Shown piece after piece: positions 17,148 to 32,982 of a DNA stretch of 32,982 nucleotides. The stretch's first letter is position 1. The number at the start of each line of letters is the position of its first letter. This DNA comes from Chitinophagales bacterium. Its GTDB lineage: Bacteria > Bacteroidota > Bacteroidia > Chitinophagales > JANQFB01. A program made the position numbers and the translations under genes. A model generated the notes under the pieces. That model did not search any database, was not told the DNA's origin, and was given only the letters and a program-made list of their open reading frames with translations. The stretch is from the NCBI GenBank assembly GCA_028278085.1, contig JANQFB010000433.1, forward strand, positions 1-32,982, given 5' to 3'.

Positions 17148-20100
17148 TTAGCGCATCAGGGATAGCTTGTTAATACTGGTTTCCCTGTCGGTGGTAACCT
17201 TGTAGAGGTACATACCTCCTGCAAGATCACCTGCCGGGAGCTCAATGAGTTCTTTATGGCCGGCATTCACCTTGCGGTCGTACAGCATTGCCACTCTTGT
17301 ACCGGTAAGGGTATATACTTCCACTTTAACGTTGGTGCTATAACCAACGGCAAAGGAAATATGCGTGACATTGGTGAATGGGTTAGGATAAGCATTTACA
17401 GCAAGGCCTTCCTGCTTACCGGGATCCATTCCCATCCTCCGCTTATCATCGGACGAACCACTGCCGGAGCTGTGATCATCAGACGATTCGCTACTACCAT
17501 GACTAAGTTGGACAAAGACCGTGTCGGTAACCGTACATCCGTTGGAATCCGTTACTTCCACAAAGAATACCAGCACTTTTCCGTCATCACTATCATCGCT
17601 GTCATCGGATGAACCGCTGCCACTCATACTTCCGGATCCGCTGTTGCTTCCACTGCTGTGGCTTTCGGAAGTAGTACTATGTACGGAATCCACCACACAA
17701 CCGTCTTTGAACACGTTGAAGCCATTATCATCGGAAGAATCATCACTTCCGCTGTTACTTCCGCTGCCGCTATTACTATCACTATCACCATGCGGGAAGT
17801 TACAGCTATTCAGATCTTCGATGGTATCGCCGGTACACCAGGAATAGGTATAAGGCTCACAGCCTCCCGATACGGTCAGGTCGATGATAAACCCATCGCT
17901 ACATCCAACATGATCATCATCGGTGGTATCGTCAGATGATGCGGAGGAACCCGATCCACTGGAGCCGGAACCTGATCCGGAGCCCGATCCGGAATGAGAT
18001 CCGGAGGAGTGCGATTCGGAAGTTGTCGATGGACAAGCGATGCAAATGATATCAAAATCAAGTGCTAAAGAGTCCGCCTCTACCGTAATGGTTTGTTTAC
18101 ATTCACTACGGTTTCCGCAAGAATCGGTGCTACTGTAGGTCCGCATAATGATGATCGGATCACCGAAGCAACCGGAGGCGCCATTACTTACATCGCCTTC
18201 GTGCTTAACGGTCGGATCGGGATCACAATTATCCATGGTTATCACATCATTAACATCCGGAGCCGGTACTTCATCGAAACATTTAACCATGGTGTCGGGC
18301 GGACACATGATCATCGGTGCAACCGTATCGATCACATTGATCGTTTGGATACACATGGCCATGTTACCACAACTATCCATGGCTACCCATTTTCTCAGGA
18401 TGGTAAATTCCTGCGGGCATGGACCGGGAACGATACTGTCGGTATGCGTAACTTCCGGATCCGGATCGCAGTTATCCATCGCAGTTGCCATTCCCAGGGT
18501 ACCGATATCTAGGCTATCCGTACATTGAACAGTAGTATCGGGCGGACACATGATCATCGGTGGAACCGTATCGATCACGTTGATCGTCTGGACACACATG
18601 CTCATGTTTCCGCAACTGTCTGTGGCAATCCATTTCCGCTCGATCGTGAACTGCTGCGGGCAGGGACCATCGATGCGGGTATCCATATAGGTAATGTCCG
18701 GTCCGGGTGCACCTTCTATGGTTTGTCCGGCATTCAGGGAACCGGGAGATTCCGCAGAAGGACCACTGAAAGTAAAGTCGCCGGCGCTGAATCCGCTGCC
18801 GGTCCTTTGCAGGGAATTTCCTGCTGCAGGGGCCGGATCTTCATCGACGCCAACATCGGTTGACATCATTCCGGACGCGGGACCCATGATGGCCATAAAC
18901 ATGCCTTCATAGCTCAAGAATTCAATGACAGATCCGGCTTTTACCAAGGCAAATCCATCGGGTGAACCATTCTGCAATCCATTTGTGGGTAAGGAGAAGC
19001 TTAAAGCTCCGTAACCCTCTCCTTCATCGTCGATGATCCCGGTGAGGTTCACGGAATTGTAGACACGTCCATTCAAGCCATTGTACAACACTACCTGGTA
19101 AGGATCAAGATCCAGGCCGGCAGGTCCGGCGATCTCCAGGAATTCTCCGGCATCGATACCACTATTGTCATAATGGAATTCATTGACCCAGGCTTCTACA
19201 ATACCCAGGGCATTGTCACAATCGTCCAGGGCAGTTGCTCTGCCCAGACTGTCGACGCCTGTGCTGTCCGTACATTGTACGGTCGTATCCGGCGGACAGG
19301 TAATGACCGGTGGCGTGTCGTCTACAACATTAATTATCTGAACACAGCTATCCATGTTGCAGCAACCGTCGGAAGCTTTCCATGTCCGGGTAATGGTGAA
19401 TTCCTGCGGGCAAGGACCGGGTGTGATCACATCGGTAAAGCAAATCACCAACCTTCCGGCTGCGATGATGGTTTGACCGATATTCAGGCTGCCGGGAGAA
19501 TCCGTCGACGGTCCGCTCCATGTGAAGTCGGTACTGCGGTTGCCATTACCGGTCAATTGCAGGGAATTTCCTGCTGCAGGTGCAGGTTGTTCATCCACAA
19601 CAACATCGGTTGACAACATACCAAACGCAGGACCTGCCGTGGCAACAAAAGTACCTTCATAGCTCAGGAATTCCACTACATTACCGGAAGGATCTACCAA
19701 TGCAAAACCATCCGGATCTCCGTTTTGAATACCGTTTGTCGGAAACTGGAAGTCAACGGCTCCATACTTGTTACCTTCATCATCGATCATGCCGGTCAGG
19801 GCTACCACATCATATACCGTACCGTTGGCACCGTTATACAAGACTAGCTGATAACCGGAGAGGTCGATGCCGGCATTTCCGGCCACTTCGATAAACTCGC
19901 CCTGATCCGTACCACTATCGTCATAATGGAACTCATTGATCCAAACCTCTTTAAAGGTGAAAGAAGTCGCGCAATTGTCTTTGGCGGAAGCTTCTCCGGT
20001 GGAGGATGGGTCGGTGCTGGCCGTACAATCGATCGTTGTATCGGACGGACACATGATCATCGGGGCAGTGGTATCGGCAATAAAGATCATCTGAACGCAA

Positions 20101-21593
20101 GTATCGCTATGACCACAGGTATCCGAAACGATCCAGGTCCGGTTGATCTTTCTCACCTTAGGACAACTGTCCAAGGGTAAAACTACTTCCATATCCGTAA
20201 AAGTAACGGTGGGCATGCAGTTGCAATTATCGCTGATCGTCGGTGTTCCGGTGGCCGAGGTATCCGTAGGTTCGCCCCATTCCACACATGTATCCGGCGG
20301 GCAGGTGATTACCAGTGTACACACCTCAACACAGGTGTTAAAGGCTTCCACATCGCCCAGGTCGGTTTTGTCCTGACCAAGCACATCGGCATCCAGATCG
20401 ACGACATAGGTATTGTTAAAGAAATAATCGGCAGCGATAGGGTTTGTTCTTTGGTTACCCGTAATCGGTAATAAGCCCATCCCATATGCCGGTGGGCTCG
20501 GGAAGATCAACCCATCTCCGTTAGCATATAATAAGCTGTCGCAGGTATAAGAAACACCACCTGTAGCGTTGGTATTCCCGCCGATCTGACCGATAAAGAA
20601 ATCCAGACCACTGGGCACCCAGCTACCGGCCACAAAAGAGTATTCCAGCAACCTGGCTGTATGTGGGCTGGTTTGATCATCACCCCGCATACCTCTTTCG
20701 GCAAGCATCATTTTACCACTTACGGGTGAAAAGCTGATATCGGCGACCGGATTGGTACGGTTGCTGGTCCGGGTTGGAAGGGTAACTTCCAATGTTTCGG
20801 AACCGGAAAAATCACAACCGACAATAGCCACTGACCAAACTTCATTATTGTTGGTCGCATCTACTGCTGTTTCATGTTCGATCCACCGGCCAAAGTAAAG
20901 CCGGCCATCATCGGGATTATACTGAACCCCCCACAATCTTTCGCCCAGGGGAGCAAAGCCGGGCGTTCCGGGGTCGGCTCCAAAGGGGTCGAAGGTATTG
21001 ACGATAGCACCTGCGGAATTCAAGCGGTAAATTTTACCATCTTCGTGATTGGTTACAAAGAATTGATCACAATCCGCCTGGTAGGCAATATTTCCGAGCG
21101 TTTGACCGGAATTTGGCAAAGTAGCAAATAGGGTGGATTCCCCTGTGGTTCCATCCAATTGCCATACCTCACCACCGGTACCACCCGGTGCCAGGGACTT
21201 GGTGAAATAAATATTGGTGGCCGTAACATAAATGTTGGGGGCCGGACCTGCATCCAGTGCAATACCGAATACTTCACCCAGGGTATCTTTTACCCAATCG
21301 CCGGCATGGAACATCGGGGGTATCCAATTGATACCGGGTACGGCACCACTACCTCCCGGATCGCGAACATCGAGGACGCCGACGATAAAGCCGTTGGCGG
21401 AACGCGCCGAATGGCAAGTGGCAACAGCCATTCCATTCAACATGGGAAGCTGGGCGAAAATGCTTTCGTTGCAAAACAACAGGAAGAGGCATAATCCTAC
21501 AGCCACCCTGAACTTGTGTTGAATCCTTGTACATAAGAACAGCCTGAACCAAGAGGCCGGGCTGCTTATCTTTTGTTTTTTTCGGATTTTCAT
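17148..21593 (-). CDS. giant T9SS cargo protein: HYR-like repeats, two nested lamin-tail-like domains, type A sorting domain
   Basis: This 1481-residue secreted protein has an extended N-terminus with a signal segment near residues 31-49 (VAVGLCLFLLFCNESIFAQ). Residues about 50-410 look like a beta-propeller or YVTN-like region (FFVTNHEDGKIYRLN, GVQYNPDDGRLYFG). Residues about 410-1190 hold repeated units of roughly 80-90 residues with CPPDTTVQC, DNC, GPCPQEFTI, and a WxAxDSCGNxxxC core, like HYR/Ig-type repeats; the paired cysteines are probably oxidised. Two lamin-tail-like domains (about 550-708 and 802-957) interrupt these units. Four Ser/Gly/Asp linkers (about 1192-1225, 1267-1292, 1303-1338, 1363-1385) precede the type A sorting domain (YPNPFTNVTHISF to NKLSLMR, about 1398-1481). 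The expected location is the cell surface or medium. Adhesion is a guess; no catalytic motif was seen. Confidence 0.9.
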   Translation of the reverse strand: MKIRKKQKISSPASWFRLFLCTRIQHKFRVAVGLCLFLLFCNESIFAQLPMLNGMAVATCHSARSANGFIVGVLDVRDPGGSGAVPGINWIPPMFHAGDWVKDTLGEVFGIALDAGPAPNIYVTATNIYFTKSLAPGGTGGEVWQLDGTTGESTLFATLPNSGQTLGNIAYQADCDQFFVTNHEDGKIYRLNSAGAIVNTFDPFGADPGTPGFAPLGERLWGVQYNPDDGRLYFGRWIEHETAVDATNNNEVWSVAIVGCDFSGSETLEVTLPTRTSNRTNPVADISFSPVSGKMMLAERGMRGDDQTSPHTARLLEYSFVAGSWVPSGLDFFIGQIGGNTNATGGVSYTCDSLLYANGDGLIFPSPPAYGMGLLPITGNQRTNPIAADYFFNNTYVVDLDADVLGQDKTDLGDVEAFNTCVEVCTLVITCPPDTCVEWGEPTDTSATGTPTISDNCNCMPTVTFTDMEVVLPLDSCPKVRKINRTWIVSDTCGHSDTCVQMIFIADTTAPMIMCPSDTTIDCTASTDPSSTGEASAKDNCATSFTFKEVWINEFHYDDSGTDQGEFIEVAGNAGIDLSGYQLVLYNGANGTVYDVVALTGMIDDEGNKYGAVDFQFPTNGIQNGDPDGFALVDPSGNVVEFLSYEGTFVATAGPAFGMLSTDVVVDEQPAPAAGNSLQLTGNGNRSTDFTWSGPSTDSPGSLNIGQTIIAAGRLVICFTDVITPGPCPQEFTITRTWKASDGCCNMDSCVQIINVVDDTPPVITCPPDTTVQCTDSTGVDSLGRATALDDCDNALGIVEAWVNEFHYDNSGIDAGEFLEIAGPAGLDLDPYQVVLYNGLNGRVYNSVNLTGIIDDEGEGYGALSFSLPTNGLQNGSPDGFALVKAGSVIEFLSYEGMFMAIMGPASGMMSTDVGVDEDPAPAAGNSLQRTGSGFSAGDFTFSGPSAESPGSLNAGQTIEGAPGPDITYMDTRIDGPCPQQFTIERKWIATDSCGNMSMCVQTINVIDTVPPMIMCPPDTTVQCTDSLDIGTLGMATAMDNCDPDPEVTHTDSIVPGPCPQEFTILRKWVAMDSCGNMAMCIQTINVIDTVAPMIMCPPDTMVKCFDEVPAPDVNDVITMDNCDPDPTVKHEGDVSNGASGCFGDPIIIMRTYSSTDSCGNRSECKQTITVEADSLALDFDIICIACPSTTSESHSSGSHSGSGSGSGSGSSGSGSSASSDDTTDDDHVGCSDGFIIDLTVSGGCEPYTYSWCTGDTIEDLNSCNFPHGDSDSNSGSGSNSGSDDSSDDNGFNVFKDGCVVDSVHSTTSESHSSGSNSGSGSMSGSGSSDDSDDSDDGKVLVFFVEVTDSNGCTVTDTVFVQLSHGSSESSDDHSSGSGSSDDKRRMGMDPGKQEGLAVNAYPNPFTNVTHISFAVGYSTNVKVEVYTLTGTRVAMLYDRKVNAGHKELIELPAGDLAGGMYLYKVTTDRETSINKLSLMR
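17440..18020 (-). repeat. low-complexity Ser/Gly/Asp-coding tracts
   Basis: Four imperfect tracts, around 17440-17505, 17580-17685, 17720-17795 and 17930-18020, encode runs of GSGSGS, SSDDSDD and SNSGSGS. They separate Cys-containing modules. At DNA level the unit is a degenerate 6-mer (Gly-Ser codons), prone to slippage. Two tracts begin with the same STTSESHSSGS block, showing they arose by duplication. Confidence 0.8.
18719..19946 (-). repeat. duplicated lamin-tail-like coding segments inside the giant T9SS gene
   Basis: Two segments of about 475 bp (roughly 19470-19946 and 18719-19193) encode clearly paralogous domains: both contain INEFHYD/VNEFHYD, YQ(L/V)VLYNG, DDEG, PTNG(I/L)QNG, FLSYEG, PAPAAGNSLQ and SPGSLN. 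Nucleotide identity is high in places, for example the shared GCAGGGAATTTCCTGCTGCA near 18811 and 19558. This is an internal duplication, not a mobile repeat. Confidence 0.85.
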
Positions 21594-22179: not shown

Positions 22180-23202
22180 TTAAGCCCAGACTTTGGTGCC
22201 CTCGGTGCAATTCCGGCAGATATCGATCTCGCTCCTGGACTTTAGAATAGCGGTCCTGAATTGATGGTATTGGCCATTGAACCAGATCTCTTTAAAGGTT
22301 CTTTCTTTGAGGTCTCCCAGGCGATGCGTCGCATCTTTATCGAAGCAGCAGGGCACGACCAGGCCATCCCAGGTGATCACGCAGGCATGCCACAGCTTCC
22401 AGCAGTGATCCAATAAACTATTCTTGATGGTATAGGTTCCGTCTTTTTGTTGCTTATACCGGGCATATTTTTCGATCGTCGGGATGAGATCATTGCCCTG
22501 CTCATACTCATAAACCTGGGCGGTTTTTAGGCGGACTTCGTCGACGCCAACCTCTTTTCCCAGGGCCATGACATCTTCGATCTGATGTTGGTTAGGCTTT
22601 ACCACCAGGAATTGAAAGATCACATGAGGAGTTTTGGCTTTCAATTGCTTTTTCCAATGAATAACATTTTTGGTCCCTTCGATCACTTTATCGAGCTTTC
22701 CACCGATCCGGTAAGATTGATAGGTTTCCTGGGTCGTACCATCGATAGACACGATCAATCTATCCAGGCCGGATTCAACCGTTTTTCGGGCCATTTCGTC
22801 GTCCAGGTAATGGGCATTGGTGGAAGTGGCGGTATATATGCCTTTCCGGGAGGCATATTGCACCATGTCCAAAAACTTAGGATTCAAATAGGGCTCTCCC
22901 TGGAAATAAAAGATCAGATACAACAAACGCCCGGCCAGCTCATCGATGGTTTGGTTGAAGAAACCGGTATCCAGCATGCCCGTAGGCCTGGTGAAGGATC
23001 TTAGTCCGCTCGGACACTCCGGGCAACGCAGGTTGCAGGATGTGGTCGGTTCGTAGGAAATGCTCAACGGCAAGCCCCATTGGACGGGTTTACGGGTCCA
23101 CTTGGACCAATAAAAGGATGACAGCACCTGCAAGGCGTTCCATAGTTTCAGCGGCGTCAGCTTTGAAGCCAGGTTTATATTATCTCGAAGATGCAGTTCC
23201 AT
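22180..23202 (-). CDS. radical SAM/SPASM domain protein
   Basis: This 340-residue protein is a radical SAM enzyme with auxiliary cluster cysteines. The core motif is SCNLRCPEC, with Cys56, Cys60 and Cys63 (CxxxCxxC), preceded by the LSISYEPTTSC strand. IFYFQGEPYLNP and LIVSIDGTTQETY follow typical barrel strands. The C-terminal SPASM-type region has Cys267, Cys274, Cys285, Cys286, Cys329 and Cys332 (ICRNCTEG), enough for one or two further Fe-S clusters. The family modifies peptides, sugars or tRNA; the substrate here is not apparent. It is the last minus-strand gene of the surface-glycan region, 170 nt after the GT2 gene, so envelope modification is a reasonable but unproven guess. Confidence 0.9.
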   Translation of the reverse strand: MELHLRDNINLASKLTPLKLWNALQVLSSFYWSKWTRKPVQWGLPLSISYEPTTSCNLRCPECPSGLRSFTRPTGMLDTGFFNQTIDELAGRLLYLIFYFQGEPYLNPKFLDMVQYASRKGIYTATSTNAHYLDDEMARKTVESGLDRLIVSIDGTTQETYQSYRIGGKLDKVIEGTKNVIHWKKQLKAKTPHVIFQFLVVKPNQHQIEDVMALGKEVGVDEVRLKTAQVYEYEQGNDLIPTIEKYARYKQQKDGTYTIKNSLLDHCWKLWHACVITWDGLVVPCCFDKDATHRLGDLKERTFKEIWFNGQYHQFRTAILKSRSEIDICRNCTEGTKVWA

Positions 23203-23372: not shown

Positions 23373-24092
23373 TCAGAATCTCCTGAACAGCAATACCCTG
23401 AGATATGCCAGGGTTGTTGTGATCACTTTCATTTTGGATCGGCCTTTCCTTCTGGAGGATTCCAGCACCATGGGAATTTCTATTACGCTGGCTTGCAGGC
23501 GTAAGGCTTTGATCAGTATTTCGACTTTCGAGATAAAACCGGGCTCGGTGATCATCGAACCATAGCGCTCTTTAACCGACCGGAGCAAATCGACCGTGTA
23601 AACGCGGTAAAAGGAGCTTAGGGTCAGTACCTTAATATCGAATACCAGGCGATACATCATATTGGCAATAAAGGAGACCAGCTTCCGCAACAGGGTAGTT
23701 TTTTCAAACCCTCCGCTTTGGGCATAGGGTGAGGCCAGCACCAGTTGGTAACCATAATCTGCCATCGCCAGCATCTGGGGTAAGATGCCCAGGTCAGATG
23801 TATTATCCCCTTCCAGGGTGATGATCTTGTCCGAAGGGTCCTTGGAATTTGATAAGATCCATTCAAAACCTGCATTAAAAGCATAGCCGGGCCCATGGTT
23901 CGATCCGTCGCCCAATATTATATATGGAGTATCCTGGAAAAGTCGGCTGACCAGTTCCGCCGTTTCGTCGGTAGAACCATCATCATAAAAAACAAAAAAC
24001 TTATCTGCAGGATGAACCAGCCCGGTCAGGGAGGCGGCAAGATCGGGCAGGTCAGGCACTTCATTATATAAGGGTATCAGGAAATAGTGCAT
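23373..24092 (-). CDS. family 2 glycosyltransferase
   Basis: This 239-residue GT-A fold enzyme starts YFLIPLYNE. FVFYDDGSTDETAELV (Asp37, Asp38) is the nucleotide-sugar site, and ITLEGDNTSDLG (EGDN at residues 94-97) stands in the DxD metal position. The layout resembles DPM1/polyprenyl-phosphate mannosyl- or glucosyltransferases, with a basic SSRRKGRSKMK stretch near the C-terminus and no transmembrane helices. The likely job is moving a sugar from a nucleotide donor to a lipid or glycan acceptor. It starts 1 nt after the stop of the epimerase gene, so the two are co-translated; the sugar made by that gene may be its donor. Confidence 0.9.
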   Translation of the reverse strand: MHYFLIPLYNEVPDLPDLAASLTGLVHPADKFFVFYDDGSTDETAELVSRLFQDTPYIILGDGSNHGPGYAFNAGFEWILSNSKDPSDKIITLEGDNTSDLGILPQMLAMADYGYQLVLASPYAQSGGFEKTTLLRKLVSFIANMMYRLVFDIKVLTLSSFYRVYTVDLLRSVKERYGSMITEPGFISKVEILIKALRLQASVIEIPMVLESSRRKGRSKMKVITTTLAYLRVLLFRRF

Positions 24093-24093
24093 A

Positions 24094-25068
24094 TCAGGTT
24101 ATAGCCATTATCCTTTTCTGCCAGGCTATCGTTCTTCTCAAACCCTCCTCCAGGGAAATTTGGGGATCAAAACCCAGTTTATCTATTATTTTACCGATAT
24201 CAGGGACCCGCCGCCTGACATCTTCATAGTTCCCGAAAGTTTTATAGGGAATGAATTCGAATGCTGGTTTGGAATTTTGTCCATGGATCAACTGCCAGAT
24301 AAGCGTTCCCAGGTCTTTGATGCTGATCTCCTCCTTCGGATCGTTGGCTATATTGAAGATCTCATTTTGAGCTGGCGCTTCGAACATGCAAAGCATGATC
24401 CCCTGAACGGTGTCGTCCACATAGGTAAATGTCCGGGTTTGCAGCCCATCGCCATGGATCTCCAGGGGTCTTTTTTCCAAGGCCCTGCCAATAAAAACCG
24501 ATTGAGGCCCACCCCACCAGGTCAAATGCTGATGAGGTCCGTATGACCCGAAAAAACGCATGATCGTAAAGCTGAGCCCTTCCTGTTCATGATTAGCAAT
24601 GATATATTGCTCGCCATATATCTTAGATAAGGCATAGGCCCACCTTTTAACGGTGGTGGGTCCGAGCACCAGGTCGGAATTTTCATGATAGGGATATGCC
24701 TTGTTTTTACCGTATACATCGGAGGTGGATGCAAATACCAGCTTGATCTTGTCGCGGTTACATTTCCGGACCACATTGCCCAACATAGACCGGTTATCGG
24801 TTAAGGTCTGCAAGGCATTGGTATACCTGGGGATCTTGAAGGAAGCCAAATGAACCAGGATCTCCCCTTTCCCTTTATCAAGGCTTTTAAAGTCGAGCAG
24901 GTCGGCTTCGAGAAAGGTAAAGTCGGTATGAGCATTCAGTGATTGAATATTTCGCAGGCTGCCATAGGATAGATTATCGATCCCGGTTACCTTGTGTCCT
25001 TTTTCCAGCAGATGCCGGGCCAGGTTCGAACCGATGAATCCTGCCACCCCGGTAATAATTACCTGCAT
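24094..25068 (-). CDS. NAD-dependent nucleotide-sugar epimerase/dehydratase (extended SDR)
   Basis: This 324-residue extended short-chain dehydrogenase has the Rossmann motif GVAGFIG (Gly7, Gly10, Gly13), the NAD-binding acidic residue in GIDNLSYGS, the FASTSDVYG strand, and catalytic Tyr145/Lys149 in YALSKIYGEQY. Later signatures include MRFFGSYGPHQH and the C-terminal VDDTVQGI. This is the UDP-glucose 4-epimerase / dTDP-glucose dehydratase superfamily acting on nucleotide sugars. The exact substrate and product cannot be told. It is directly followed by the GT2 gene (1-nt gap), as in surface glycan clusters. A 345-nt non-coding gap with an inverted repeat separates it from the upstream membrane-protein gene. 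Confidence 0.91.
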   Translation of the reverse strand: MQVIITGVAGFIGSNLARHLLEKGHKVTGIDNLSYGSLRNIQSLNAHTDFTFLEADLLDFKSLDKGKGEILVHLASFKIPRYTNALQTLTDNRSMLGNVVRKCNRDKIKLVFASTSDVYGKNKAYPYHENSDLVLGPTTVKRWAYALSKIYGEQYIIANHEQEGLSFTIMRFFGSYGPHQHLTWWGGPQSVFIGRALEKRPLEIHGDGLQTRTFTYVDDTVQGIMLCMFEAPAQNEIFNIANDPKEEISIKDLGTLIWQLIHGQNSKPAFEFIPYKTFGNYEDVRRRVPDIGKIIDKLGFDPQISLEEGLRRTIAWQKRIMAIT

Positions 25069-25413: not shown

Positions 25414-27063
25414 TCAGTTTTTTTGATGAACCCTGTACAGGCCGAATTCGAAGGCCCTGTTGATCTCTTCAAAGGTTACCGCCATTTGATAATGCTCCAT
25501 CATATACCTGGCATACAACTGATTTTTTCCCGGATCACTGACCAGGAAAATGTCATCCATTTGGGCTAAGGCCGGGTAAATATCATCGATGTCAAATTCC
25601 CGCAAACGTTCGAAATAGGGCGGGCTGTTGGTTTTTACACCCAGGGGTAATATTTTCAAAGCCTTTACATATTCCAGGTGATCGAAGGGCAGGCAGGCAT
25701 TCAAGGGCAATAATCCGGCCCAATTAACATATAACTGACCGGGTGAAGGGTCCAATTCCCGGATAAATGACCGGAATTCGCGGTTACGTTCCATCGCCGC
25801 CGAACCTTGCCGGTAAAGCCAGGACCACCAGATCCCCAGCAGCAGCAATCCGATGATGAAGAAATACCGCTTTCTACCTGCTTTGATATCAATACGGAAG
25901 GTGTCGAAAATGCCCCAAACCCCGATAAATCCCAACATCGGCAGGATGGTCCTGTCATTGATCTTTTTGAAAAGAAGGAGATACAAGCCTAAAACCACCA
26001 TACAACCGGTCAACAAGATAAATTTCCGGCGCCTTTGAACATCCGGCCAAAACAATATCAACCCTAATGCCAGCCAAATCACCGAGACTGCGATCACCGG
26101 TTGCCCGATCAACCGCTTGAAATCGGCGCCGGCGCTTCCCCAGGAAAATTTTAGGGTGGGCAGATGGCTGGTAACCTGTTTAAACCTGGCCAGGCTATAC
26201 CTTGACGAATCTGCAAAAAACCATGTCCGGAGCATCGCCAGGTCATTGCTACTCCAACCTATTGCTTCGATCTGGTTTTGATCACGCAAGTTGTGATATT
26301 CCACTATCTGTGCGCGTTGGGAATTGTATTGATGAAAGCCTTTCCAAGCCGGATCCTGTTCCAACAGGCCAATCCTTAAATTTGACCCCGCCAAGATGCA
26401 AACCACCCACACAGACATCGTGATCAAAAAGCGGTAAAGCAAAGGATTGGTAAAGCGGTTGAAGAGGTGAAGGGCAAATACCGGCAACGCAAGCAGCCAT
26501 AACTGGATGCCCGGAGGCACCCTGATCAACAAACCTATGGATACCAGGATCGTACCCATGCCCAAATATCCCAACCAATGCTTTCGATCGCCGGAAAATC
26601 CCATGTACATCCAAAGGATCCCCGCCTGGATCAACAGATAGGCCGTATAGGTAAACTGCAGGTGGGTCAGGAACCAAAACCCGAAAAATAAGCACCAGGC
26701 TACCCACAGCGCCAACCTGCCGGCAGAAAAGGCCATTTTGAGGATCGCATACCCTGTAAACACCAGGGCTGATAAGATCAGGAAATATTTCAAGATCCCA
26801 TACCAGGGCCAGTAGGGTTTGAGTTCAAACAGGTTAACCAGGACCATACCGACCAAATTATTGGAGTGGTAAAGTGAGGCATCCGGCTGACTGCCAAGCA
26901 CCATCCCTCCTGAATAGAATGCCATGGCAGGATCGTCGTTGGTCAGGTAGAAGGGTTGCAGGCCAGCCAACACGATCAATACGGACAATACCCCAACGGA
27001 GAAACTGGTTAAAAACGGCTGCCGGGCACACCAGGATATCAACTTATGCTTATGGGGATTCAT
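25414..27063 (-). CDS. polytopic membrane protein, GT-C glycosyltransferase-like
   Basis: This 549-residue integral membrane protein has about ten or eleven hydrophobic segments between residues 17 and 410, and a soluble C-terminal part of about 130 residues. After the first helix the loop reads YLTNDDPAMAF; an acidic pair at this position is what GT-C lipid-linked-sugar transferases use, which is my main reason for the suggestion. No strong family signature was recognised, so an uncharacterised membrane protein is equally possible. It begins 4 nt after the stop of the upstream SGNH-like gene, which places it at the end of the MBOAT/SGNH operon. Confidence 0.7.
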   Translation of the reverse strand: MNPHKHKLISWCARQPFLTSFSVGVLSVLIVLAGLQPFYLTNDDPAMAFYSGGMVLGSQPDASLYHSNNLVGMVLVNLFELKPYWPWYGILKYFLILSALVFTGYAILKMAFSAGRLALWVAWCLFFGFWFLTHLQFTYTAYLLIQAGILWMYMGFSGDRKHWLGYLGMGTILVSIGLLIRVPPGIQLWLLALPVFALHLFNRFTNPLLYRFLITMSVWVVCILAGSNLRIGLLEQDPAWKGFHQYNSQRAQIVEYHNLRDQNQIEAIGWSSNDLAMLRTWFFADSSRYSLARFKQVTSHLPTLKFSWGSAGADFKRLIGQPVIAVSVIWLALGLILFWPDVQRRRKFILLTGCMVVLGLYLLLFKKINDRTILPMLGFIGVWGIFDTFRIDIKAGRKRYFFIIGLLLLGIWWSWLYRQGSAAMERNREFRSFIRELDPSPGQLYVNWAGLLPLNACLPFDHLEYVKALKILPLGVKTNSPPYFERLREFDIDDIYPALAQMDDIFLVSDPGKNQLYARYMMEHYQMAVTFEEINRAFEFGLYRVHQKN

Positions 27064-27067
27064 GCGC

Positions 27068-28168
27068 TTAATCGGATCCTTTTGGTTGGTGTGAAGGATT
27101 GATCAATTCAAGGAATGACCGGGCCAATGCCGCGGAATATAACCGTGCGCCTTTCGAGTTCATATGATTGCCGTCAAAACTATAATCCAGGTCATACCAT
27201 TCCGGATATTTAGCCGGATCGATCAGATCAATTTTCAGGGGGTGATCCAATTGCCGGTAGGTCCGGATCACGGCTGCCAGGTCTTCATCCAGGTTCTGCA
27301 TCAGGAAGATCAGCTTGACATTTTTAGCATCTGCCAATTCCTGCAATGCCCGGACTTGTGCCAGATAAATGGCATCTGCCTTTTCCGGAGGAGCATCCTG
27401 TTGGAGTAACCGGGATATTTTCTCTTTTAGCTCCTGAATGGACCGGGGATCATTAAGTAGTTTTTCATGACGCCTGGCAACTGCGGCAAATTGACCGGAG
27501 TGCCTGCCTAATCCTGCTGTATCCGCAGCCAAAGCACTGATAAAACGATCGTAGTCAAGCGGTTGGTGACCTGATTCGTTTACCCAATGATCAAAATCAC
27601 TTAGGGTAACCGGTAATTGCCCGGCTTGCTTCCATGGATTCAGATTGTAGGCAGACCGTTTTAGGTAGTTTAGGATATAAACAGTCGAAAAATAAAGCTT
27701 TTTATGCACAGGCATTTGTGATGCCCACAGGTAACGGAAGGTAAACCCGAAAGCATTTGCATTGAACCAATAGGCAGGTGCAGGCTTTTTTAAGGAACCC
27801 AGGAAGAGGTGTTTTTTAACCGGGCTAAATTCTACGACCAGGTATTCCAGCCCGGGTGGGTCGAGCGATAGAATATGCTCGGTCAGGTAAAAGATATGCT
27901 GAGCTCTGAAACTATGGATACCCAGGTTAAACGATTTGACAGGATATCCCGCGACCGAATCAAAAACTTCCGGATCGATATGATTACAGGTCTGGCTCGA
28001 ACCGACGAAGAGGGTGTTGTAGTTTTCGTGATGATCTTTGTAATACCTTACTTTTAAATCGATCCAGTTTTGTTTGGACAAGTAAAAGGTATTTTTCAAT
28101 CCCGCTAACACCAGGATCATCAGGATCAGGGAACAAAAAATTGCTATTTTAAGGACTAGCTTTTTCAC
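27068..28168 (-). CDS. membrane-anchored SGNH-like protein, copy 1
   Basis: This 366-residue protein has an N-terminal membrane anchor (residues 5-25, LKIAIFCSLILMILVLAG) and a domain outside the membrane. Block I reads NTLFVGSSQT (Gly56-Ser57-Ser58), and the last block is FDGNHMNSKGA with Asp332 and His335 (DxxH), the arrangement of SGNH/GDSL esterases and of DltD- or AlgX-like acyl-transfer partners. It is a paralogue of the protein encoded at 29668-30729. It lies 58 nt downstream of the MBOAT gene. In known systems MBOAT proteins pass an acyl group across the membrane and SGNH partners finish the transfer; that role is inferred here. It may also lack activity. Confidence 0.8.
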   Translation of the reverse strand: MKKLVLKIAIFCSLILMILVLAGLKNTFYLSKQNWIDLKVRYYKDHHENYNTLFVGSSQTCNHIDPEVFDSVAGYPVKSFNLGIHSFRAQHIFYLTEHILSLDPPGLEYLVVEFSPVKKHLFLGSLKKPAPAYWFNANAFGFTFRYLWASQMPVHKKLYFSTVYILNYLKRSAYNLNPWKQAGQLPVTLSDFDHWVNESGHQPLDYDRFISALAADTAGLGRHSGQFAAVARRHEKLLNDPRSIQELKEKISRLLQQDAPPEKADAIYLAQVRALQELADAKNVKLIFLMQNLDEDLAAVIRTYRQLDHPLKIDLIDPAKYPEWYDLDYSFDGNHMNSKGARLYSAALARSFLELINPSHQPKGSD

Positions 28169-28226
28169 CAGATCAATGGTTGATATTTTGTTGCCGAACG
28201 GATGTTTTTAGGTTTTTTGACGGCTT

Positions 28227-29663
28227 TTAAAATTGAAAATAAACAAATGGCCTTTCTTCATACACACCAAAACCAATGATGACCAGCACCAATGCCAAAT
28301 AGCAGGTCCACCGAAGCAAAACCGGCTGCTGCCGGATCCAATCGCGAACCGGCTGGCGTCTTTGCCAAAGATGAACGATTTCCAGGATCACAACAAAAAC
28401 TGCAGCCAGCATCAGCTCATACCGGTTATTCATAAAAATAGGGAGCCAAAGCTGCTCACTTTTGATCATTACCATGTTTTTTATTAATAGGGCTGCATCG
28501 TTCATATTATTGGCCCGGTATATGATCAGGGAAAAGGCAAATAAACAAAAGGTGCAACATGCGTTGATCCATTTGTTGGTGAGGGGCCATTTTTCAAGCC
28601 CGAATATCCGGGCCCTGAGCTTCAGGGTAGCATCGCCAACCAGCAGGTATAAGGCATTCACGGCCCCGAAAACGACAAATGTCCAGTTCGCCCCATGCCA
28701 TAGGCCCACGGCAAGGAAAACGATGGTTATATTATAATACCATCTCCATCGATGCACCCGGTTACCCCCTAAGGGGATATAAACGTAATCTTTAAACCAT
28801 GTGGATAGGGAGATATGCCAGCGCCGCCAGAATTCACGCATAGAAACCGCATGGAACGGTCGGCGGAAATTGACCACCAGGTTGATCCCAAAAACCTGGG
28901 CGGCACCAATGGCAATATCGGAATAACCGGAAAAATCACAATAGACCTGGAAGGTAAAAAAAACCGCTGCCAATATAATGGGCCAACCTTCATACGCTCC
29001 AGGATCACCATAAACCATATCCACATAAATAGCCAGCCGGTCGGCAATGACCACCTTCTTAAAAAATCCCCAGGCCATCAGCTTCAACCCATCGGTAATC
29101 TGCTGATATCGGAATACGAATTTTTGATGGATCTGCGGTAACAGGCGACCGGCCCTTTCGATCGGACCGGCGACCAACTGTGGGAAAAAGGATACATACA
29201 AAGCAAACTTTCCAAAATGCCTTTCGGGCCGGATCTTTTCGTGGTATACATCGATGGTATAAGCCAGCGTTTGAAAAGTATAAAAGGAGATCCCGACAGG
29301 TAGCAGCAGATCTGCGTAGGGAAAGGTATGTGATAAACCCAGTCCCAGCAAGAGATCGTTCACAACATTGGTAGCGAAATTCAGATATTTAAACATTGCC
29401 AGCAAGCCAAGATTAACGCCCAGGCTCAGGAATAACCATTTCCGTTTTCCTTTTTTTGTCAGGGCCTTGTTCATTTGAAGCGCCGCAACATAGTCGATTG
29501 TAGTAGATATCAGGATCAATAAAGCATAGCTGGCGTTCCACCACATATAAAAGATATAACTGGCTACCAGTAGCAACAACCAGCGCCAGCGATCGGGCAT
29601 AATAAAATACAGTCCGACGACCAGCGGAAAAAATAACCCGAAATCAAGGGAGTTAAATAGCAT
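28227..29663 (-). CDS. MBOAT family O-acyltransferase (AlgI/DltB type)
   Basis: This 478-residue polytopic membrane protein is of the membrane-bound O-acyltransferase family, which moves acetyl or other acyl groups to glycans or other envelope polymers. The start is typical (MLFNSLDFGLFFPLVVGLYF). LPVGISFYTFQTLAYTIDVY, FPQLVAGPIERA, WRRWHISLSTWFKDYVYIPL and GLWHGANWTF are family signatures; the last holds the invariant catalytic His323. Length and motif order are normal. It sits between two paralogous SGNH-like genes, 4 nt after the first of them. This matches the AlgI-AlgJ/AlgX and DltB-DltD logic, so cell-surface glycan acylation is the likely job. The acceptor is unknown. Confidence 0.94.
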   Translation of the reverse strand: MLFNSLDFGLFFPLVVGLYFIMPDRWRWLLLLVASYIFYMWWNASYALLILISTTIDYVAALQMNKALTKKGKRKWLFLSLGVNLGLLAMFKYLNFATNVVNDLLLGLGLSHTFPYADLLLPVGISFYTFQTLAYTIDVYHEKIRPERHFGKFALYVSFFPQLVAGPIERAGRLLPQIHQKFVFRYQQITDGLKLMAWGFFKKVVIADRLAIYVDMVYGDPGAYEGWPIILAAVFFTFQVYCDFSGYSDIAIGAAQVFGINLVVNFRRPFHAVSMREFWRRWHISLSTWFKDYVYIPLGGNRVHRWRWYYNITIVFLAVGLWHGANWTFVVFGAVNALYLLVGDATLKLRARIFGLEKWPLTNKWINACCTFCLFAFSLIIYRANNMNDAALLIKNMVMIKSEQLWLPIFMNNRYELMLAAVFVVILEIVHLWQRRQPVRDWIRQQPVLLRWTCYLALVLVIIGFGVYEERPFVYFQF

Positions 29664-29667
29664 GCCC

Positions 29668-30729
29668 TCAGCGATCTGCTAACATCCGGCGGGTAGCAAC
29701 TTCAAATGACAATCGGCTGGTGAATATCCGGGCGCCGCGCGTGTTAAGGTGGTATTTATCATAATTATTGACAAAATAGTAAAACTCCGGATATCGCACC
29801 GGATTTGCCATATCGATCCTGGCATCAGGGTCTAGTTGGTTAAATACTCCAAAGACCAAGTCAAAGGGCTGACGGGGCAACTGAAGGATCAGCATGAGTT
29901 TGATCCCGGCATCAACCGCTTTTTCCCGTAGCTTCCGGATCCTTTTTAAATAAACGCCCCCGACAATTCCCGGGGATGACCGGGCCTGATCATAGCACTG
30001 GGCTCGCTGGTACAAAATGCTAGTGTCATTCCGTAGATCCTGGTGGTGAAAGAGGATCTTTTCGATATTTTGACGGATGGTTCCCTCGTGGTGCATCAAT
30101 GAATCGGTTAACCTTTGCTTATCCAACGGCAAAAAGCCATTTTGAAGGGCCAGGCCCGGCATCCGATCGACATGACGACTTTGCAACTGCCAGGCATGAA
30201 AGGGATTGCCCTGCTGAAAAGCTCTTCTGAAAAAACAAGTGGTATAAAGACCAGTGATAATCATCTTCTTAGCCACCGACAGTTCTCCGGACCAGATCGA
30301 ACCCAGCATAAATACATAATGTTCCGGGGAAAGCCAGTAGGTCGGGCGGGCATGTTGGATAATACTCCAGTGCTGACTCCTGAAAACCGGTGAAAGCTCC
30401 AGGAACAAATATTTCAACGAGGGACTACCTGTTTCGATCAGGTGTTCGGCCAGGTAGAGATTTTCCGGGAACCAGGTGCCGTTGATCCCCAGATTGAGTG
30501 ACCGGGTACCATTGATAGAATCGAAGATAGCCGGGTCGATATGGCTGGCGGTAAGGCTGGACCCCAGGAATACCGTGTTGTAATCGGAATGGTGCTGTTC
30601 ATAGAACAAGATCTTATCATCAACCCAGAAAATATCCGAATACTGGAAGGCCTCTCGAAAGCTCAGGCAGCCATAACCTACCAACAGGCAGGCTACAAAG
30701 ATCCCTAGACGGCCAAATAGCTTTTTCAT
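29668..30729 (-). CDS. membrane-anchored SGNH-like protein, copy 2
   Basis: I chose ATG 30729 (MKKLFGRLGIFVACLLVGYG), giving 353 residues, because it yields a membrane anchor and overlaps the upstream stop in ATGA. A longer frame starting at 30825 would add 32 charged residues inside the upstream gene. Block I is NTVFLGSSLT with Gly56-Ser57-Ser58 at the same residue numbers as copy 1. The last block is YDKYHLNTRGA with Asp324 and His327. Shared features with copy 1 include HIDP(A/E)(I/V)FDS and NLGI. It is expected to be a periplasmic acyl-transfer or esterase partner of the MBOAT encoded 4 nt downstream. Confidence 0.82.
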   Translation of the reverse strand: MKKLFGRLGIFVACLLVGYGCLSFREAFQYSDIFWVDDKILFYEQHHSDYNTVFLGSSLTASHIDPAIFDSINGTRSLNLGINGTWFPENLYLAEHLIETGSPSLKYLFLELSPVFRSQHWSIIQHARPTYWLSPEHYVFMLGSIWSGELSVAKKMIITGLYTTCFFRRAFQQGNPFHAWQLQSRHVDRMPGLALQNGFLPLDKQRLTDSLMHHEGTIRQNIEKILFHHQDLRNDTSILYQRAQCYDQARSSPGIVGGVYLKRIRKLREKAVDAGIKLMLILQLPRQPFDLVFGVFNQLDPDARIDMANPVRYPEFYYFVNNYDKYHLNTRGARIFTSRLSFEVATRRMLADR

Positions 30730-32982
30730 GGGTTCATCGTTGTGCTTGATCGGTGTCGCGTGATCCAATACCTGGCTCCTGCTGCCAGTGGCCCGTCGAT
30801 GGTCGTGCGCTCCCCGGTCGACCATTGTATCACCACCTTATCCACTTGCTGATGGCTGCCCAGCCCAAAATGAGCTTCATAAGGATCAAATGAACGGAAT
30901 CCTCCTCCCATCACCATCTCCCGCATTTGCTGCTTTCCGTCACCATAATATATATAGATCTTGCTGTTGATCCCATAATAATTGCCGATCTCGTCCCGCA
31001 ACATGAAGCGGATGGCCCGCAGGGTGGCATTATTCCGGTAAACGATCACAGGCCCCACGGAAGGGACCACGAATATATCCATATCCCCGTCATTATCCAT
31101 ATCCATATAGGTATAAGCCTGGCAAGGTATACCCATCCGCATATTGGATTCATCCGTGCGGTTCAAAAATTGTTGGCCCTGATCATTCATCAGCAGCAGA
31201 TTTGTCGATTGCCTTTTCTTCCACATAAAACCGTTGACCACATACAAGTCTACCCATTCATCCTGGTCGAGATCGGCAAATTTACCATTCCAGGACCAAC
31301 CGGTGGTTTCCAGGCCCCGGGCTAGGGCCATATTCCGGAAACGGCCATTGGGTTGAGGCATCAACAACACATTCTGATGGGCCGATTGGGGAATGGCCTG
31401 TTGATACTGGATCTCCGGGTATTCCAATAGCTTCACCTCTTCCAGGCAAGCCAGGTTATAGGATTCCCAGGAAGGCGGGAAGTAGCGGCAGATCTTTTCG
31501 GCGACCGCACGCTGGTCATTATTGGTACGGGCTGTCAGGGCCATGTTCCACAGTTTATAACCGATACAATCCGCCCGGTAACTTTCCTCGCAGTAACGCA
31601 CCCGGTCGATAGCCGAGGTTTTCATCGAGACTATGGTTTGCTGGATGGTATAGACCTGTTCACAATCTTTTTTCTCTGCCGGATCTGTTATATCCCCGCA
31701 GATCCCCTTGACATTCAGGGCCCAGTAATCCCGGTTTAATTGCAGCTCGCTGTCCTGGGTTTGATAGATCTCCAATTGCCCGTTATTATCTATATCGGCG
31801 GTGGTTACACTCATCGTAAATTTTGTGCCTAGGGGTATGATACTATCGCTTCGGGTTAACAATGTCATTTGTCCCTGACCATTGCCTCGGTAGTAATGAT
31901 CCGGGTAAAAATGGTCATTGCCAACGATCAGATCAGGGAGATTATCATTGTTGAAATCGGAGATCAGTGCACATAAGCTCTCTCCCGGAAGCCCCGGAAG
32001 CTTTTTTTGCCGGAACTCCCCATTGTTATTGATCAGCAGATCATCCCCGGAGGCCGGCGAGGGCCGGAAAGGTTTCCTTGGAAATACCAAAAGAGAAGGG
32101 CCGAGTGTCCAGTTGGCCATGGCAAGGTCCAGGTCGCCGTCTTTATCCGGATCGCCTGCTGAAACGGCTGCTGTTAGACGCGTATCTTGGTCTAAGGGTA
32201 AGCGATGCAGTGATCCGAATTTCCCGGAATCGTTGTACAGGATATAGTTGCCATGAAGATAAGTGGTGATCAGCAGATCGAGCCAGGAATCGTTATCCAT
32301 ATCGACCAGTGCGGCATTAAATACATAAACGCTGTCGAATTGCGGCAGATCGATCTCCCTTTTGTAAAACCGGCCATCGCCCGTATTCATAAAGATCGAC
32401 AGGCCCTGGTAATCGGCAATGACAAAATCCTGCCAATGATCCCGGTTTATATCTCCGCTGCTGATACCACGTCCCAATGCATAGGGTTCCAGGAGGTTGA
32501 TCAGGGAAAAAGAATAGGCTAACCCGATGCCTAAAGATGGTCCGGAAAGCTGGGTGAACAGGGTATCCGATGCCGATACCGGAGACTTGAAATCTGCTTT
32601 GTGCATGCTTATTCCGGGGGGCAACGCCAGATCGATCTGTTGAAAGCCCACTGCGCCGCCGGAAACTTCAGCGGCCTTTTTATTTGAGGGATATGTTTTT
32701 TCGAACAATACGGATAAGCCTTCCTGTTTTTCCAGGAATTCCCCGAAAACAGCTTCCAGTTTTTTATTTTCCTTGATCGCAAAATAATGCGCGGCTACTC
32801 CGGATCCAATACCCAGCAAAACCAGGCAAGCCATCAACCCAAGCGCCAACTTAAACGACATGGACTGCCGTACGATCAAAAAGGAGTAAATGCTGAATAT
32901 CCCCAGGGTAAATAGCAGCACCATAACGTATTTCGGCGGCATCCCTCCAACCAGCAGGACGACACAAATAATCACGTCGAAG
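30726..32982 (-). CDS. membrane-anchored FG-GAP/ASPIC (UnbV-like) repeat protein, 5' end outside window
   Basis: At least 752 residues; the frame is open at the right edge and the visible N-terminus is already hydrophobic, so the true start probably lies outside. A GTG at 32975 is the only nearby start inside. Visible order: two or three transmembrane segments (about residues 1-65 counted from 32975), an extended linker, then seven Asp-rich calcium-loop repeats of the FG-GAP/VCBS type (GDINRDHWQDF, VDMDNDSWLDL, GDPDKDGDLDL, SDFNNDNLPDL, ADIDNNGQLEI, ADLDQDEWVDL, MDMDNDGDMDI). An ASPIC/UnbV domain closes it (FGLGSHQQVDKVVIQWSTGE). A six-Cys insert lies at about 416-520. The family suggests an extracytoplasmic protein-binding propeller. 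It overlaps the SGNH copy 2 gene by 4 nt. Confidence 0.88.
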   Translation of the reverse strand, partial: FDVIICVVLLVGGMPPKYVMVLLFTLGIFSIYSFLIVRQSMSFKLALGLMACLVLLGIGSGVAAHYFAIKENKKLEAVFGEFLEKQEGLSVLFEKTYPSNKKAAEVSGGAVGFQQIDLALPPGISMHKADFKSPVSASDTLFTQLSGPSLGIGLAYSFSLINLLEPYALGRGISSGDINRDHWQDFVIADYQGLSIFMNTGDGRFYKREIDLPQFDSVYVFNAALVDMDNDSWLDLLITTYLHGNYILYNDSGKFGSLHRLPLDQDTRLTAAVSAGDPDKDGDLDLAMANWTLGPSLLVFPRKPFRPSPASGDDLLINNNGEFRQKKLPGLPGESLCALISDFNNDNLPDLIVGNDHFYPDHYYRGNGQGQMTLLTRSDSIIPLGTKFTMSVTTADIDNNGQLEIYQTQDSELQLNRDYWALNVKGICGDITDPAEKKDCEQVYTIQQTIVSMKTSAIDRVRYCEESYRADCIGYKLWNMALTARTNNDQRAVAEKICRYFPPSWESYNLACLEEVKLLEYPEIQYQQAIPQSAHQNVLLMPQPNGRFRNMALARGLETTGWSWNGKFADLDQDEWVDLYVVNGFMWKKRQSTNLLLMNDQGQQFLNRTDESNMRMGIPCQAYTYMDMDNDGDMDIFVVPSVGPVIVYRNNATLRAIRFMLRDEIGNYYGINSKIYIYYGDGKQQMREMVMGGGFRSFDPYEAHFGLGSHQQVDKVVIQWSTGERTTIDGPLAAGARYWITRHRSSTTMNP

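Follow-up and report, generated by a model that had tools for sequence, protein, structure and literature searches.

The window analysed here is the whole of contig C441 (32,982 nt) from a Bacteroidota draft genome (G000; 590 contigs, 6.12 Mb), and it probably carries the downstream part of one surface-glycan operon, in which an MBOAT-SGNH acylation core is accompanied by a recruited transporter, an ArsP_1 permease joined to an FG-GAP/ASPIC propeller. Five minus-strand open reading frames were located, at 30726-32975, 29668-30729, 28227-29663, 27068-28168 and 25414-27063 in gene order; an ATGA overlap (-4) at the first junction is followed by gaps of 4, 58 and 4 nt, confirming the coordinates and the single operon proposed in an original prediction made from this sequence alone. 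The acyltransferase part of such an operon is well understood, so its presence is ordinary. The unusual part is the permease-propeller fusion, which was found by following the truncated first gene.

A permease-propeller fusion cut by the contig end

The frame of the first gene (30726..32982, minus strand) is open to the contig end, and its 751 codons represent the 3' part of a fusion gene whose 5' end has been cut off. In the encoded protein, FG-GAP_3 (E = 7e-35) and UnbV_ASPIC (E = 5e-15) both exceed the Pfam cut-off, the combination of domains that characterises the CRTAC1/ASPIC family. Two complete paralogues elsewhere in the genome, of 1093 aa on contig C460 and 1064 aa on contig C104, each have a PF03773 ArsP_1 permease at the N-terminus, followed by the FG-GAP/ASPIC region. 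The piece in the window aligns from residue 331 of the longer paralogue, and keeps only the last two permease helices at its start, then the propeller, then the ASPIC domain. The two domains named in the original description of a membrane-anchored FG-GAP/ASPIC protein are therefore present, but the protein is really the C-terminal part of a permease fusion. The GTG near the contig end, at 32975, might be taken as the start of a stand-alone FG-GAP protein anchored by two helices. Since the window is the whole contig and the frame is open at its end, this start is not credible; furthermore, the residues on either side of the GTG correspond, in alignments with the paralogues and about 20 homologues, to permease helices, and an orphan N-terminal half exists on contig C333. 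With both the truncation and the permease-bearing paralogues against it, a stand-alone gene is very improbable and was rejected.

Four ArsP_1 domains were found genome-wide: two belong to the full paralogues, while C333 and C92 each have one in an orphan N-terminal half at a contig end. The PF03773 scores of the complete paralogues and the C333 half are 38-41 bits, against a cut-off of 32.3. There are likewise two orphan C-terminal halves, one in the window and one at C104:8425-10782. The C333 half ends approximately 5-6 codons short of the piece in the window, and the C92 half approximately 5 codons short of that on C104, whereas the C333 and C104 halves overlap by about 38 residues with differing sequence; hence the consistent pairs are C333 with C441, and C92 with C104. 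As the MBOAT gene on C333 ends 15 nt ahead of the permease start, the reconstructed operon would read sulfotransferase, SGNH/GDSL, MBOAT, (15 nt), ArsP_1-FG-GAP/ASPIC, SGNH1, MBOAT, SGNH2, membrane protein.

A scan of 84,980 species recovered around 20 loci with relatives of the fusion (L082-L101), mostly near full-length and of 32-39% identity, in genomes or metagenome-assembled genomes (MAGs) labelled as Bacteroidota, Acidobacteriota, Pseudomonadota, Myxococcota, Planctomycetota, Nitrospinota and others. Within the Bacteroidota, full-length fusions beyond this genome were present in one of 399 genomes sampled from the order, two of 395 from the class and none of 396 from the phylum. Most Bacteroidota homologues exceed the PF03773 cut-off, with one (L222) slightly below it at 30.3 bits. 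One group of MAGs, proteobacterial and myxobacterial, has two genes in place of the fusion, divided precisely where the permease meets the propeller. At five of these loci (L089, L090, L091, L092 and L096) the ATG of the FG-GAP gene directly follows the in-frame stop of the permease (TAG or TAA), while at a sixth (L099) there is no ATG at that spot and the FG-GAP gene begins a few codons later. Reading the stop as a sense codon was rejected, given the mixture of TAG and TAA, the hydrophobic or signal-like starts of the second proteins and the locus lacking the ATG. An 8-nt overlap links a divergent ArsP_1 gene to an FG-GAP/ASPIC gene in two other Bacteroidota. The family is rare yet distributed across several phyla; its two domains may be fused or encoded by neighbouring genes, and an MBOAT is mostly absent. 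The occurrence of both fused and split forms in distant phyla argues for a real partnership between the ArsP_1 permease and the FG-GAP/ASPIC propeller, and for the two constituting a functional unit; such a recurrent domain pairing makes the function of a class of propeller/ASPIC proteins testable. At the five split loci with the adjoining ATG, a TonB-dependent receptor gene lies upstream of the split genes; two of the five loci also have a TPR-sulfotransferase. A split pair at another locus (L213, 5993-10682) adjoins a gene whose product combines a multicopper-oxidase domain with one of cytochrome c (NirK-like).

The permease has approximately nine predicted transmembrane (TM) helices, and the invariant motifs of the family include G-x-PLG-[VL]-CVNC-x-x-P and a P-x-x-N block. 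A model of the permease domain (predicted local distance difference test, pLDDT, 81; predicted template modelling score, pTM, 0.79) contains, by eye, two similar sets of broken helices. Its nearest named kin are the Cu/Zn efflux protein SO_0444, required for growth under Zn or Cu stress (PMC3219624), and SaoE, of the Sao system that has been linked with organometals (PMC13188914). The only sequence match of the propeller in the PDB is CRTAC1 (9etn, E = 1e-7), and the propeller is most likely extracytoplasmic. By kinship, the fusion would be an exporter of a transition metal, a metalloid or another thiol-reactive solute, with the propeller acting as a Ca-stabilised periplasmic binding or delivery domain; it is a candidate for a new type of metal or small-molecule exporter. 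No description of a fusion between an ArsP permease and FG-GAP/ASPIC was found in a limited literature search covering few subscription journals, so the term 'undescribed' is provisional.

The acylation core

The third gene (28227..29663, minus strand) encodes an MBOAT O-acyltransferase of 478 aa that matches PF03062 above the cut-off (E = 1e-28), as originally labelled. It has the predicted catalytic histidine of the MBOAT-SGNH family within a WHG motif (His323; codon 28695..28697), and its residues 473-478, FVYFQF, fit the FXYXXF acyl-shuttle motif that has been demonstrated biochemically for PatA and DltX (PMC12148441), making Tyr475 (codon 28239..28241) the predicted acyl carrier. Of 41 MBOAT sequences taken from this genome and others of its order, nearly all have both the WHG histidine and F-x-Y-x-x-F at the extreme C-terminus, with a few ending in Tyr. 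The closest solved structure by sequence is DltB (6bug, E = 3e-29).

On either side lie two predicted membrane-anchored SGNH acyltransferases, also on the minus strand: SGNH1 (29668..30729; 353 aa; Ser58, Asp324, His327), and its paralogue SGNH2 (27068..28168; 31% identity; Ser58, Asp332, His335), which has a GTG start. Each has one N-terminal TM helix, a GSS motif containing Ser58 and a D-x-x-H block, the features expected of the adjacent SGNH partner of an MBOAT, and neither reaches a Pfam or NCBIfam cut-off. The SGNH labels of the original prediction therefore stand on motifs and context, not on a family match: all 24 homologues compared retain the block I glycine and serine together with the DxxH-type histidine, and the genes are adjacent to that of the MBOAT. 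This pairing is conserved, as an MBOAT gene directly adjoins an SGNH gene in almost every locus from the order. Judged by sequence, the MBOAT gene and its two SGNH neighbours encode an acyltransferase of the standard MBOAT-SGNH type, a known kind of machine, and the module was correctly named as such.

While the residues, motifs, gene order and pairing are observed directly, the chemistry is inferred by homology to PatA/PatB and DltB/DltX/DltD. A thioester donor in the cytosol would supply the acyl group to the MBOAT, where His323 would transfer it through the membrane to Tyr475, within the C-terminal FVYFQF of the same protein. The next carrier would be Ser58 of one of the membrane-tethered SGNH proteins, SGNH1 or SGNH2, which would load the group onto a periplasmic glycan. 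The genome encodes ten MBOATs. A paralogous locus on C460 (L069, 3871-8836) contains a Dlt-like set comprising a DltA-type adenylation enzyme, a GNAT-like protein (by inspection), an acyl carrier protein (ACP), an MBOAT and an SGNH protein, divergent from a permease-propeller gene; because this MBOAT-SGNH pair comes with an adenylation enzyme and an ACP, ACP-bound acyl donors are plausible in this genome. The end of C460 overlaps contig C175 by 79 nt, producing a larger island with three MBOAT-SGNH pairs.

The fifth gene (25414..27063, minus strand) encodes a polytopic membrane protein for which a simple hydropathy scan predicts approximately seven TM helices; its first loop, after TM1, has a TNDD motif (residues 41-44) that the full-length homologues share. 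These features are all that lies behind the earlier GT-C-like label, which is possible but amounts to a guess: neither the protein nor its homologues matched any family or structure, GT-C included. Homologues are present in four of 99 genomes from the order, in one of which (G092) an MBOAT-SGNH pair lies about 6 kb away. The mem538 protein of C175 and Roseivirga was considered as a relative and rejected, there being no profile similarity (hhalign probability 0.1).

Association of the permease-propeller with acylation

None of approximately 30 MBOAT-SGNH loci in the 99 genomes sampled from the order has a permease fusion, nor an FG-GAP gene within about 10 kb above a trivial 12-bit match. Two loci of this genome, C333/C441 and C460, were the only ones seen to combine MBOAT/SGNH with FG-GAP genes, and among homologues outside the Bacteroidota no MBOAT was seen beside a permease-propeller gene. 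The first gene is outside the conserved acylation core. The proposal that the FG-GAP protein holds the acceptor or scaffolds the complex is unsupported as stated, and confinement of the exact gene set to one genome had itself been named as evidence against it. A weaker link to transmembrane acylation survives, since the permease-propeller recurs beside other Bacteroidota acylation genes.

This recurrence takes several forms. A Roseivirga copy lies after an AT3 acyltransferase, and the C333 and Roseivirga loci have homologous PhyH, glycosyltransferase and sulfotransferase genes in common. In two further Bacteroidota genera (G833 and G918) copies are found beside FabA-like genes, and in G833, where the contig reaches further, ketoacyl synthase, phosphopantetheinyl transferase, PhyH and glycosyltransferase genes are also near the copy. 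In a phylogenetic tree that left out these last two copies, the Bacteroidota sequences form a supported clade. Within it, the AT3-linked copy from Roseivirga joins the two linked to MBOATs (96/94), and sister to this trio are two AsnB-linked copies. The members of the supported trio are nevertheless deeply divergent (42% identity), so the association with acylation is not recent. A second context, of AsnB, HprK-like, PqqD and sulfotransferase genes, is common to this genome (C92/C104), G629 and two Acidobacteria. The cluster of PqqD-like, HprK-like, sulfotransferase and AsnB-like genes occurs with a permease-propeller gene at L180 on C92, L070 on C104, L220, L087 and L097, thereby spanning two Bacteroidota families as well as the two Acidobacteria. 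It resembles lasso-peptide-type modification machinery, and a transglutaminase-core protein is encoded in L087.

These distributions bear on how closely the two systems cooperate. Were the permease-propeller a working part of the acyltransferase, the propeller might hold the acceptor or dock the SGNH proteins, with the membrane part moving acceptor or donor. The ATGA overlap with SGNH1, the 15 nt separating it from the C333 MBOAT, the two copies at MBOAT-SGNH loci in this genome, the Roseivirga copy following AT3, the supported trio that these three make up, and the two copies beside FabA-like, ketoacyl synthase or phosphopantetheinyl transferase genes would all fit. Nevertheless, this is unlikely, as no other MBOAT-SGNH locus examined has a permease-propeller, most homologues outside the Bacteroidota have no acyltransferase nearby, and AsnB, HprK, PqqD and sulfotransferase genes are instead the neighbours of the sister copies C104a/b and of the copy in G629. 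At the other extreme, the gene may be a passenger in a crowded glycan or secondary-metabolite island, co-transcribed but functionally unrelated to acylation. Its partners do vary across phyla, including TonB receptors, sulfotransferases, EF-G and an SSF symporter, and with ten MBOATs in the genome chance meetings in glycan islands become easier; yet the junctions on both sides in the reconstructed operon are tight, and across the Bacteroidota there is a tendency towards acyl or glycan loci, leaving this a possible though somewhat doubtful explanation. The fairest reading is that the permease-propeller is a transporter that this lineage would have recruited into glycan/acylation operons, and more generally into glycan or modified-peptide loci, its link to acylation being suggestive but unproven. 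A further, improbable reading takes the ArsP_1 permease and its CRTAC1-like propeller, whether fused or encoded by neighbouring genes in several phyla, as one functional unit and as an envelope transporter of a class not yet described, which in Bacteroidota would work directly with transmembrane acyltransferases by moving or presenting the substrate in order to acylate a sulfated surface glycan.

Several results weigh against the preferred combination of an acylation core and a recruited transporter. The SGNH fold is unconfirmed, a structure model of SGNH1 from two sequences being poor (pLDDT 46) and unusable, and no gene for the acceptor or donor was identified in the window, where there is neither an A-domain nor an ACP. 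Contigs C333 and C441 share no overlapping sequence, such that their join is inferred. A fold search with the permease model returned no structure with E below 0.1, with weak resemblance to INDY/CitS-type transporters only, and the equivalog scores are at most 68 bits against 300 for SO_0444 and 39 against 325 for SaoE. Because these scores are far too low and no structural match is confident, the substrate class of the transporter is a guess.

Neighbouring genes and known systems

Downstream of the operon by 345 nt, on the same strand, is a gene for an NAD-dependent sugar epimerase/dehydratase (24094..25068), followed by one for a family-2 glycosyltransferase (23373..24092, minus strand; PF00535, E = 1e-13). 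Adjoining these at 22180-23202 is a Radical SAM/SPASM protein, the nearest model for which, a tungsten-cofactor oxidoreductase maturase, scores 126 bits and is below its cut-off. A surface protein of 1481 aa with a type IX secretion system sorting signal and HYR_4C and lamin-tail-like domains is encoded at 17148-21593. Promoter and terminator scans gave signals similar to those from shuffled sequences.

Peptidoglycan O-acetylation by PatA/PatB shares the MBOAT catalytic histidine, the C-terminal FXYXXF and the membrane-tethered SGNH partner, whereas the operon described here has two SGNH partners, a permease-propeller gene and a glycan-cluster context. The Dlt system for D-alanylation of teichoic acids is similar in that DltB is the nearest solved structure to the MBOAT, and the C460 locus adds an A-domain enzyme and an ACP like DltA and DltC; by contrast, the shuttle motif is on the MBOAT itself and not on a DltX, and the host is Gram-negative. 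Membership of the Dlt system was rejected, as the MBOAT scores 155 bits against the 375 required by the DltB equivalog (TIGR04091), and DltA and DltC were not found in the operon region. The arrangement of MBOAT and SGNH genes is also that of AlgI/AlgJ/AlgX in alginate O-acetylation, but AlgX is a sub-threshold profile match (E = 0.45) and no alginate genes were recognised in the examined part of the window. With the ArsP_1/SO_0444/SaoE permeases the fusion has in common a PF03773 match above the cut-off and a Cys-containing central motif, and it differs from them in its C-terminal FG-GAP/ASPIC propeller and distinct invariant motifs. Finally, it resembles the CRTAC1/ASPIC-UnbV proteins in combining FG-GAP repeats with UnbV_ASPIC, except that these are here joined to a membrane permease instead of forming a free secreted protein.

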